Origin: Leptolyngbya sp. CCY15150
GTDB lineage: Bacteria > Cyanobacteriota > Cyanobacteriia > RECH01
Assembly: GCF_016888135.1 (NCBI RefSeq)
Contig: NZ_JACSWB010000175.1
Location: 1 to 64,000, forward strand
DNA length: 64,000 bases
Reading direction: 5' to 3'
Positions 47,043 through 50,865 of this stretch are shown here, piece by piece. Within the stretch, counting starts at the first letter, position 1; each line of letters opens with the position of its first letter. The translations under genes were made by a program, and so were the position numbers. A model generated the notes under the pieces. It ran no database searches, had not been told where the DNA came from, and was given only the letters and a program-made list of their open reading frames with translations.

Positions 47043-47449
47043 AATTCTTCAATCCCGCGAATAATTTTGAACAACTGGGCCAAATTGCGTGACTTGGAAA
47101 TATAGCAATTGACATGCAAATCGTAGCTATTAAAGATATCTTCCTCATTACGCGAGGTGGTGAGCACAATGATGGGAATGTGCTGAAGATTGGGATCGGC
47201 CTTAATTTCTGCTAGGACTTCCCGTCCATCTTTTTTCGGCAGATTCAGATCCAGCAAAATTAAGTCGGGACGGATGGCCGCTTGGTAGTCCCCATTCTGT
47301 CGTAGGTAGGTCATCGCTTCCATGCCATCCCGAGTTACCACCACGTCACAGGGCGACGTGGTGCTTTTGAGGGCCTCTTGGATCAGGCGGATATCGCCGC
47401 GATTATCTTCGACCAAAAGGATAGTTTTGAGTCGTTCGTCCGCTAGCAT
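46985..47449 (-). CDS. rcp1: Rcp1-type response regulator
   Basis: 154 residues, one receiver domain only: acidic pair in LLVEDN, phospho-acceptor Asp67 in LLDLNLPKKDG, Thr/Ser in LTTSRNEEDI and Lys in YISKSRN. The C-terminal EEFWLETA end is characteristic of the Rcp1 group partnering cyanobacterial phytochromes. It begins inside the end of the phytochrome gene (47-nt overlap), strongly implying they work together. Confidence 0.93.
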   Translation of the reverse strand: MLADERLKTILLVEDNRGDIRLIQEALKSTTSPCDVVVTRDGMEAMTYLRQNGDYQAAIRPDLILLDLNLPKKDGREVLAEIKADPNLQHIPIIVLTTSRNEEDIFNSYDLHVNCYISKSRNLAQLFKIIRGIEEFWLETAILPPSEVPLTEMG

Positions 47450-49712
47450 GGTTGCGATCGCGCCCTCCTACAGGAATCGTGAAATAAAACGTTGTCCCTT
47501 GATCTAGGGCTGACTCCACCCAGATCTTGCCTCGGTGGCACTCAACAATCTTTTTGCAGATCGCCAATCCCATGCCGGAGCCGGGATATTCATCACGGGT
47601 ATGGAGGCGTTGGAAAATCACAAAGATGCGTTCGGCAAACTGTGGATCAATGCCAATGCCATGGTCTTGCACAGAGAACAGCCAATCATCTTCCCGCCGC
47701 TGCACGCCAATATGGATTTGAGGTGCCTCGCCAGGCTTACGGAACTTGATGGCATTGCCCATCAGATTTTGGAAAAGCTGCATCAGTTGGGTGCGGTCTA
47801 CCACAATCGTCGGCATGGGGTCATGGGTAATCACCGCGCCAGTTTCAGCCACCCGCCCCCGTAGATTACTCAGCGCCTGACCTAACGGATCGGCTAGGTC
47901 GGTGAGTTCACATTCCACCCCCTTTAGATCAACCTTGGAATAGACCAACACATCATCAATCAGGGTTTGCATTAAGCTCACCCCTTCCACGGCAAAGCCA
48001 ATAAACTCCTTGCCGTCTTCGTCTAACCGTTCGTCGTACCGCATTTCCAGAAGTTGCACAAAGTTTGCTACCTGATTCAGCGGTTCCTGTAAATCATGGG
48101 ATGCCACATAGGCAAACTTCTTCAGCTCTGCGTTGGAACGCTCCAGATCTTGGGCCAGCAACGCCAGCTCTTCGGCCTGCCGCAGAATGATATTGACGAT
48201 CGCTTTCCGTAATTCCAGCACCGCCTTGATTTCCACCGGCTTCCAAGGCAGCGACTTGAAGCGCACCGTCTCTTTCCATAGTTCAAAAGACTTGCGAGGG
48301 CAGAGCCGCACCTCTCCTCCTTCATCGGTCACCTCGTAGGCATGGTTGGGATCGCCCCCCCAGTTCACCGTCTGAATGACCTCAGGGCGGAACCACAGCA
48401 CATAGCTGCGCTTGGAAAGGGGAATGGCGAGCAGGCCGCTGGCCACATTCTTAAAGCGCTCGGCATCGGAGTAGGCGAGGGGTAAGGCATTGGTCGCAAA
48501 CACCTCCCCATCCACCGTCTTGTTCAGCCACTGCACCAAAAAGTTGAGTTCCTCGTCTGGCGGCGTTTGCCCTACGGTCGTCCAGGTGCCGTTGAAACAG
48601 ATGGCTGCGCCTTTAGCGTCCACCAAATCCAGCAGGTTGGGATGGTGGCACGTTAGCCCGTCCACAAAATAGTCGGATTCCGACATGAAATCAATCAACG
48701 CCGTCTGCACCTGAGCCAGCTTGGCGCGGTAGCTATAGTCGGCTTCTTCTTCGCGGGTGGAAATTTCAGCAAAGATGACCCGGCCCAAAAATTCGCAGGC
48801 CTTGCGCAATTCATAGGGCACCAGCTTGGGCGTGCGGTGGTGGCAGGCAATCAAACCCCACAGCTTGTTATCCTTCATCAAAGAAATCGTCAGGGATGCG
48901 CCCACACCCATGTTGTGCAGATAGTCTAAATGGCAGGGATAGGCACTGCGCAGGATGGAAAGGGTGAGATCGGTGAGCTGTTCGGTGGCGGGATTAACCG
49001 GTGGATAAAGGTCAACGGCTTCCGCCGTAGCATCTGGAATGACGCGAATCCAGTTGGACAGAAACATTTTGCGCGCCGTGCTAGGAATGTCAGATTCTGG
49101 ATAATGCAATCCTAGATAGGACTCCATATCCTTGATCTTATCTTCCGCCACCACTTCCCCATGGCCGTCTTCGTCAAACTTGTAGAGCATCACCCGCTCA
49201 AACCCCGTGACGCTGCGCACCTGCCGCACAATGATATGGCAGAAGTCCGCTAGGCTGGCAGTTGATTCCAGTTGTTGAATAGATGCCTTGGCCAGGTGAT
49301 AGAAGCTGAGGAAGGGAATGTTGTCTTGGGTGACCGCAGGCTCTAGCTCTAGAACCAGGGTGTGATCCGCCGTGCGATGGAAGACGGCATCAAACACGCT
49401 GTAGTCATCCCCGTTGCGCCGCGCCCATACCTTGGTTGGATTGATCAGCTCTAAGTTGTTGTAGGATAGCCCAGCCCGAAAGCGATCGACTTGATAGGGA
49501 TCGAGGATTTCGTCGAGGGTTTGCCCGAGCAGATCCTCCGCCTTGACGCCAAGCAGCTTAGAGGCATTCCGACTCACCTGTAAAATGCGCAGATCCGGCT
49601 CATCTAGCACCAGCACCACCCCATGGGGCTGAATTTTGACAAGGTGATGAATCTCAGGCTGTTTGAGATGGGTGAGATTAAGGCGTTGAGCATCAAGATC
49701 GACCGCAACCAT
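47403..49712 (-). CDS. cph1: Cph1-type phytochrome histidine kinase
   Basis: 769 residues from the ATG at 49712, chosen for gggagg five bases upstream; the TTG at 49748 has none. Order PAS-GAF-PHY-histidine kinase. The GAF chromophore motif SAYPCHLDYL places the bilin-linking Cys at 260 with His261 and the pyrrole-water Asp208 in YPESDIP, nearly the numbering of Cph1 (Cys259, Asp207), so phycocyanobilin attachment and red/far-red switching are expected. The PHY tongue has WGG and PRKSF. H-box His539 (VASHDLQEPLNQV). Output goes to the overlapping Rcp1-like gene. Confidence 0.95.
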   Translation of the reverse strand: MVAVDLDAQRLNLTHLKQPEIHHLVKIQPHGVVLVLDEPDLRILQVSRNASKLLGVKAEDLLGQTLDEILDPYQVDRFRAGLSYNNLELINPTKVWARRNGDDYSVFDAVFHRTADHTLVLELEPAVTQDNIPFLSFYHLAKASIQQLESTASLADFCHIIVRQVRSVTGFERVMLYKFDEDGHGEVVAEDKIKDMESYLGLHYPESDIPSTARKMFLSNWIRVIPDATAEAVDLYPPVNPATEQLTDLTLSILRSAYPCHLDYLHNMGVGASLTISLMKDNKLWGLIACHHRTPKLVPYELRKACEFLGRVIFAEISTREEEADYSYRAKLAQVQTALIDFMSESDYFVDGLTCHHPNLLDLVDAKGAAICFNGTWTTVGQTPPDEELNFLVQWLNKTVDGEVFATNALPLAYSDAERFKNVASGLLAIPLSKRSYVLWFRPEVIQTVNWGGDPNHAYEVTDEGGEVRLCPRKSFELWKETVRFKSLPWKPVEIKAVLELRKAIVNIILRQAEELALLAQDLERSNAELKKFAYVASHDLQEPLNQVANFVQLLEMRYDERLDEDGKEFIGFAVEGVSLMQTLIDDVLVYSKVDLKGVECELTDLADPLGQALSNLRGRVAETGAVITHDPMPTIVVDRTQLMQLFQNLMGNAIKFRKPGEAPQIHIGVQRREDDWLFSVQDHGIGIDPQFAERIFVIFQRLHTRDEYPGSGMGLAICKKIVECHRGKIWVESALDQGTTFYFTIPVGGRDRNHASGRTTQNYPFGRR

Positions 49713-50424
49713 AGCATCCTCCCAAGGATAGTCTTGTGACAATTTCAACGAGTTTAGTGTTCTAAGTCAATTTCGGCGTTGTTGAATACAAGTATGAATT
49801 GCTCAATCCGCCCTCTCCCTAGGGAGACAGGAGTTCTAGCTCCCTTCTCCCTAGGGAGAAGGGCTGGGGATGAGGGCAAATCATCTATCAATTCAGCAAT
49901 GCCTCAATTTCTAGGTAGCCGCTCTGTACCCTAGCCCAGTCCATTGTCCTAACTCAGGTGATGCCGTGTAGGGAAATCATGGTTTTGAGGCTGATGAGGA
50001 TGAAGCAGAGGGGGTTTGGCGATCGCCATGGCTATCAAGTCTAGGGTATCCAAGAGCATGAGACTCCTGGAAGGTCGGCGATGGGGGCAAGCAGCGCGTG
50101 ACCAACCTACAGGGCTTTTATGGCAATAGCCTCTATGTTGTCCAACGTTTGGATCAGCCTTGCGTCTATACTCCTCACCCAAGTCATCCTCTGACAGCAT
50201 GATCATAGATAAGATTTATAGCCGTTGTAGACCCGTTTAGTTGAACCTATTTGGCAGCATATCGTACAAATCCACAGGTTTTCCTAAGGCAATTCTTAAA
50301 TAAACCAGAATTTATCTAGATTCCGCAAAGATTTGTGTATATTCGCCTGGGGCTCATCAAGAAACAATACTTACCTTGGATAATGATCACGTTTTTTAAC
50401 ATAGTGACGTAATGGGTGATGTGG
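49713..50424. other. Spacer downstream of a response regulator, upstream of cph1
   Basis: Contains the MITE at 49767-49911 and no supported gene. A minus-strand frame at 49949-50206 has unlikely composition and no start site. The promoter of the phytochrome operon must lie between 49713 and about 50.3 kb; the MITE sits 55 bp upstream of the cph1 start. Confidence 0.45.
49767..49911. mobile_element. MITE with 8-bp target duplication
   Basis: A 129-bp element (49775-49903) has imperfect terminal inverted repeats ggcgttgttgaat (49775-49787) and attcagcaatgcc (49891-49903), 11 of 13 matching, and is flanked by exact direct repeats tcaatttc at 49767-49774 and 49904-49911. The interior holds a perfect palindrome cccttctccctagggagaaggg (22 bp, 49842-49863) but no reading frame. 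It is a non-autonomous transposon relic; the cognate transposase is not in the window. Confidence 0.82.
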
Positions 50425-50865
50425 TCACTCCACCGGCAGCGTCACAATTCCTAACCAAAATTCCTCAATGCGCTTCACAATGCTGGCGAGATTGTGCAGG
50501 TCGTCGGATTTGAGCACATAGCAATTGCTGTGGAGGGTATAACTTTTGAGAATGTGCTCGGATTGATCCGAGAGGGTGAACACCACGATGGGGATGCGGC
50601 GCAGTTGATGATCGGCTTTGATCTCCGCCAAGAGATCGAGACCATCGGCGTCTGAGAGATTGAGGTCAAGAAGAATGATATCGGGACGGGGAGAGGCGTC
50701 GTAGATCCCTCGGTGATATAGAAAATCTAAGGCCTCCAGTCCACTAGCGATCGCCACGATCTGATAGCATCCTGAGGTTTCATGTAAGGTTGTTTCGATA
50801 ATGCGATTATGGTCTGGGTTGGCATCGATGACCAAAATCAATCGTGCAGGCGCGGCATCCATCAT
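50425..50865 (-). CDS. Orphan Rcp1-like receiver, altered acidic pocket
   Basis: 146 residues, single receiver. The phospho-acceptor Asp67 (LLDLNLSDADG), the Thr in VFTLSDQ and the Lys in YVLKSDD are present, and the EEFWLGI end groups it with Rcp1. But the acidic pair reads Asp14-Ala15 (VIDANP) where a second acid normally binds Mg2+. No kinase is adjacent on the same strand. It may be a weakly phosphorylated or partner-gated version of the Rcp1 gene 3 kb away. Confidence 0.88.
   Translation of the reverse strand: MMDAAPARLILVIDANPDHNRIIETTLHETSGCYQIVAIASGLEALDFLYHRGIYDASPRPDIILLDLNLSDADGLDLLAEIKADHQLRRIPIVVFTLSDQSEHILKSYTLHSNCYVLKSDDLHNLASIVKRIEEFWLGIVTLPVE

Follow-up and report, generated by a model that had tools for sequence, protein, structure and literature searches.

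The window, that is, the whole 64,000-nucleotide stretch of DNA analysed here, contains a gene for a phytochrome histidine kinase (PAS_2-GAF-PHY-HisKA-HATPase_c; 47403–49712, minus strand). It is followed downstream by a response regulator and then a hybrid kinase, encoded by overlapping open reading frames on the minus strand. Upstream of this phytochrome operon, a single-domain response regulator is encoded on the same strand (50425–50865, minus strand). In the intergenic region between this gene, which ends at 50425, and the phytochrome kinase, the first gene downstream, lies a 129-bp non-autonomous element (49775–49903, no strand assigned), delimited by its sequence, its genome copies, its fold and clustering. 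As described in an earlier note on this DNA, exact 8-bp direct repeats TCAATTTC surround the element; we read the left copy at 49767–49774 and the right copy at 49904–49911 (both plus strand). The note had also placed the element 55 bp upstream of the operon. This distance stands, at 54 bp, if translation starts at the ATG at 49712, which is preceded by GGGAGGA and is the likely phytochrome start. It does not stand for the longest phytochrome open reading frame, which starts at a TTG at 49748 and leaves 18 bp to the element.

Both ends of the element are bipartite. The left terminal inverted repeat (49775–49800, plus strand) reads GGCGTTGTTGAAT-N5-TATGAATT and the right one (49878–49903, minus strand) GGCATTGCTGAAT-N5-GATGATTT. 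The 13-bp inverted ends reported previously are present but imperfect: GGCGTTGTTGAAT and GGCATTGCTGAAT (right end, reverse complement) pair at 11 of 13 positions and differ at two. A palindromic core (49811–49863, no strand assigned) is formed by 23-nt arms that are 87% complementary, together with a perfect 11-nt palindrome half-site pair. The element DNA folds into one hairpin over its whole length (z = −8.6), and none of 200 shuffled sequences equalled it. With a length of 129 bp, inverted ends, a full hairpin and no transposase gene, the element has the make-up of a type I miniature inverted-repeat transposable element (MITE).

We then analysed the existence of further copies in the host genome (5.75 Mb, 304 contigs), which the earlier note had expected. 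They are present: 18 places, counting the window, align over roughly 120 or more of the query's 145 bases (E ≤ 2e-32), besides many shorter matches to the same query. For the end GGCGTTGYTGAAT, 72 occurrences were counted in this genome, versus 0 for its reversed control. Ends were paired by a script that compares their 8-bp flanks, applied to the own-genome loci L001–L060 and L083–L118. This yielded 32 end-pairs whose flanks agree at 7 or 8 of 8 positions, with an exact match in 18; among the 32, the pair in L021 (1374–1478) is probably spurious because its ends hold 6 mismatches. In a narrower count, in which overlapping loci were counted more than once, shifting one flank by 1, 2, 3, 5, 8, 13 or 20 bases reduced 40 unshifted agreements to 3, 1, 0, 0, 0, 0 and 0, respectively. 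Two copies, L012 and L018, have 9-base instead of 8-base duplications. The family thus has the many dispersed copies with target duplications of one length, 8 bp (9 bp in these two), that are expected of a MITE. When flanks were rejoined, 31 of 33 elements were found to interrupt no open frame of at least 120 codons.

For clustering we used 37 elements, namely 31 flank-matched ones, L012, L018 and four that have no matching duplication. Twenty-two of them fall into subfamily A, to which the window copy belongs, 12 into a second group and 2 into a third, and one is a singleton. The subfamily A consensus measures 145 bp, and the window copy is about 16 bp shorter through an internal deletion. 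It is 95.3% identical to this consensus, while its nearest sibling reaches 94%.

A comparison with the empty site in relatives, proposed in the earlier note, was made in two congeners, and both lack the element at the window site. In the congener G002, window positions 49300–49774 correspond to C20 3385–3859 and positions 49904–50400 to C20 3852–4349. The two flank matches overlap by exactly 8 bases there, and therefore the target TCAATGTC is present once, with the element absent: a precise empty site. The corresponding site in G001 is without the element, too. Neither flanking repeats without the element nor a lack of copies elsewhere, both named beforehand as grounds against a MITE, were encountered. 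One might still suppose that there is no element here, and that an inverted repeat and the two 8-bp repeats around it arose by chance. Taken by itself, an 8-bp repeat is indeed weak evidence, since other short two-copy families occur within the same 501 bases. However, the many genome copies, the duplication rule with its shifted-flank control and the precise empty site speak against chance, which has a negligible probability and is refuted by the empty site. With identical duplicates, an 8-bp rule in the family and an empty site in a congener, the earlier reading as a MITE with a clean 8-bp duplication is borne out. That is, 49767–49911 is confirmed as a real insertion of a MITE.

How old is this insertion? 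Since both congeners lack the element, the insertion most likely arose in this lineage, after the split from both. The earlier wording, rather recent, agrees with these two empty alleles and with duplicates that are still identical, but sits less well with a copy that differs by 5% from its consensus and has its nearest sibling at 94%. The insertion thus appears recent relative to the species split, whereas two observations argue against a very recent jump: the copy has diverged by 5% from the consensus, and no sibling is identical to it. G001 lacks the L003 copy: the flanks of that copy are 109 bases apart there, versus 333 in the query. For the L006 copy, the flank match in G002 stops at the edge of the element, yet 319 bases separate the two matches. 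The phytochrome on record RECH01000160.1 (Leptolyngbya sp. DLM2.Bin15) is 98% identical to that of the window.

The ends of the family consist of two blocks, GGCGTTGCTGAAT and, after N5, TATGA. A search for a transposase whose elements carry such ends, suggested in the earlier note, led to ends of the IS1 type, with only IS1 fragments in the host itself. The IS1 transposase (PF03400) was detected in all four genomes of the host's family. In G002, the IS1 copy on C954 measures 754 bp and has an exact 8-bp duplication, GCTGTACC; both of its open reading frames match NCBIfam transpos_IS1 and the second also matches Pfam DDE_Tnp_IS1. In G003, a genome of the same family as the host, we found one copy of 752 bp with identical 26-bp ends (C104) and one of 764 bp (C393), with no duplication seen at either. 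Stops or frame breaks interrupt these IS1 copies of G002 and G003. For the PF03400 match in G001, no end of the IS1/MITE kind was found within 3 mismatches. The MITE ends match the IS1 elements in G002 and G003: relative to the end of the 752-bp copy, the MITE consensus end has 3 mismatches in 26 positions, the left end of the window copy 4 and its right end 6. As the likeness between MITE and IS1 is confined to the ends, descent by internal deletion of an IS1 is unsupported.

Within the host genome, contigs C102, C66, C274 and C92 have IS1 pieces at their edges, with 88–96% identity to the G002 copy. This placement fits collapsed repeats; C66 also contains a decayed IS1 remnant. An intact IS1 was not seen in this genome, either by the PF03400 search or by IS1 sequence match. 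Within the own-genome loci used for end pairing, paired ends with matching 8-bp flanks were sought at spacings of up to 3.5 kb, and no full-length autonomous element was found between them.

Two other transposase families were considered as source. ISAs1 was rejected, since its transposase (PF13808) has no match in the host genome. PF01609 (IS5-like), in turn, has 7 matches there, and the MITE could have been moved by an IS5-family (IS903-like) transposase, given that the ends of such elements, about 1,060 bp long in this genome, likewise begin GGCKTTGTTG. At two loci (L061 on C288 and L062 on C249), PF01609 transposases lie between look-alike ends beginning GGCKTTGTTGCATGAA, and this look-alike group also includes the ISAba12-type ends, GGCTTTGTTGCACAAA (PMC6382973). 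However, a match along the whole terminal inverted repeat is missing: agreement ceases after about a dozen bases, leaving 11–12 mismatches in 26 positions versus 3 in 26 for IS1. Moreover, target duplications of the ISAba12-like elements listed in PMC6382973 are 9 bp long instead of 8, and neither L061 nor L062 shows a duplication. We therefore rejected the IS5-like elements as source and regard movement by such a transposase as very unlikely. One of these two IS5-like elements has an internal stop.

IS1 elements are known to duplicate about 8–9 bp of their target. A duplication of 8 bp was observed in the MITEs, in the IS1 of G002 and in an IS1 of Calothrix, and was not seen in the two G003 copies; the partner transposase is IS1 (PF03400 / NF033558). 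Full-length IS1 relatives also occur on cyanobacterial plasmids, where 22 plasmid records match; in 13 of these, the match covers 80% or more of the query. Like the MITE, the IS1 elements of Calothrix sp. 336/3 (NZ_CP011383.1) and Microcystis aeruginosa NIES-2481 (NZ_CP025929.1), identified by PF03400 and NF033558, have a bipartite end that begins with GGCGTTGC, with a TATGAAT block at position 19. The Calothrix copy has the related end GGCGTTGCATAAT-N5-TATGAAT and, again like the MITE, an 8-bp duplication, which is exact. The flanks of the Microcystis copy allow a 10-base duplication to be read, while the adjoining 8 bases differ at 3 of 8 positions; in a Stanieria copy, 2 of the 8 flank bases differ. 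In contrast to the MITE, which has no transposase gene and shares the ends alone, these IS1 copies are about 755 bp long and carry one. The Calothrix and Microcystis genes (L185, 340–1031, and L186, 339–1033) each span two reading frames connected by a −1 shift at a stretch rich in A, as in classical IS1.

Since its bipartite end is that of the IS1 family, with the 8-bp duplications of IS1 in relatives, the element is, judged by sequence, an IS1-type, type I MITE. We thus consider it highly probable that this non-autonomous 129-bp element, equipped with the bipartite ends of a roughly 750-bp IS1-family insertion sequence, is moved by IS1 in trans. An IS1 transposase supplied in trans would bind both ends of the element, move it into the intergenic site TCAATTTC and leave the 8-bp duplication behind. 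That IS1 did the moving is what we infer from the ends, and the insertion polymorphism between congeners would be indirect support for mobility in trans. The family thereby gains a transposase assignment, together with a datable insertion beside a light-sensing operon.

MITEs that pair by their ends with an insertion sequence are already known in cyanobacteria. One case is Nezha of Anabaena/Nostoc, which is linked to ISNpu3. Nezha, cited in PMC10969869, is likewise a cyanobacterial MITE, broadly of the same type as the one in the window. Another case, a 187-bp MITE of Microcystis aeruginosa PCC 7806 with the ends GGCTCTTCG, is portrayed in PMC11448079 as a hairpin with 8-nt duplications that is mostly intergenic and whose ends pair with a host insertion sequence, all of which it has in common with the window MITE; unlike the latter, it is assigned to ISL3-type transposases and not to IS1. 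MITEAba12 of Acinetobacter (113 bp) begins with GGCTTTGTTG and resembles the window MITE in these first bases, but is described in PMC6382973 with a 9-bp duplication and ISAba12 ends, not those of IS1. The MITEs of Anabaena sp. 90 are given in PMC3542288 as type II, with no matching insertion sequence in that genome. In the open-licence literature searched, we came across neither this family nor an IS1-type MITE from cyanobacteria, nor any paper that contains GGCGTTGCTGAAT or that combines Leptolyngbya, 'miniature inverted-repeat transposable' and 'insertion sequence'.

To see how far ends and interior are distributed, both were searched in other cyanobacteria. The exact bipartite end occurs in all four genomes of the host's order and, across the phylum, in 60 of the 386 genomes sampled, versus 0 for the reversed control in all rows listed; the motif could therefore aid the annotation of IS1-type elements in cyanobacteria. 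The 129-bp element itself matched in 18 of the 386 genomes (E ≤ 1e-6, two candidates per genome scored), and outside the host genome nearly all matches span the palindromic core only. Four of five such core-only loci that we read lack an IS1-type end at the core, while the locus in G292 has one on one side. Since core matches elsewhere are mostly without IS1-type ends, the core appears to be related to a wider cyanobacterial palindrome, bracketed here by ends of the IS1 type. The host genome holds at least three interior types (the groups of 22, 12 and 2, plus the singleton), which have little in common beyond the 23-bp bipartite end. Tentatively, one IS1 end may have captured several unrelated interiors, although we hold this to be the less probable course. 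If true, MITEs would arise by gaining sequence between IS1 ends and not solely by internal deletion of IS1, and the mobilisation of a widespread palindrome would be explained.

Finally, we asked what the insertion might mean for the phytochrome operon. It adds 137 bp upstream of the phytochrome start codon, and with a transcription start upstream of the element, a strong hairpin would come to lie in the 5' leader. According to the earlier note, the element could carry or disrupt the operon promoter. A consensus scan of 49650–50424 gave no positive evidence for this: neither a promoter nor a terminator was found inside the element, and the sole promoter-like site (50202–50231) lies well outside it and is no better than chance. 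A regulatory role, in which the insertion supplies a promoter or tunes the operon through a 5'-leader hairpin and was kept for that reason, would suit an element that lies upstream of the start codon, at a distance of 54 bp. It would also suit the minus-strand RNA of element and leader, which is strongly folded (z = −6.2), and other MITEs have been reported with promoters and RNase-cleaved hairpins (PMC10969869). However, apart from the lack of promoter- or terminator-like sites inside the element, the same hairpin is present at many unrelated places, and its stem shows hardly any two-sided changes. Such changes affect just 3 of 40 consensus pairs, which gave no convincing support for selection on the hairpin. 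Thus, a regulatory effect is possible, but we judge a role for which the insertion was kept to be unlikely; little or no effect on the operon is the likeliest outcome. For gauging how a single MITE influences a single promoter, the empty allele of the congener could act as control.

In addition, a further small element, about 80 bp long and flanked by CTA or CTAG, carries GTTTTAAAAC close to each of its ends. It is nested in a subfamily A MITE (L021, within 1501–1721) and in the IS1 remnant of contig C66 (L031, about 1590–1680).
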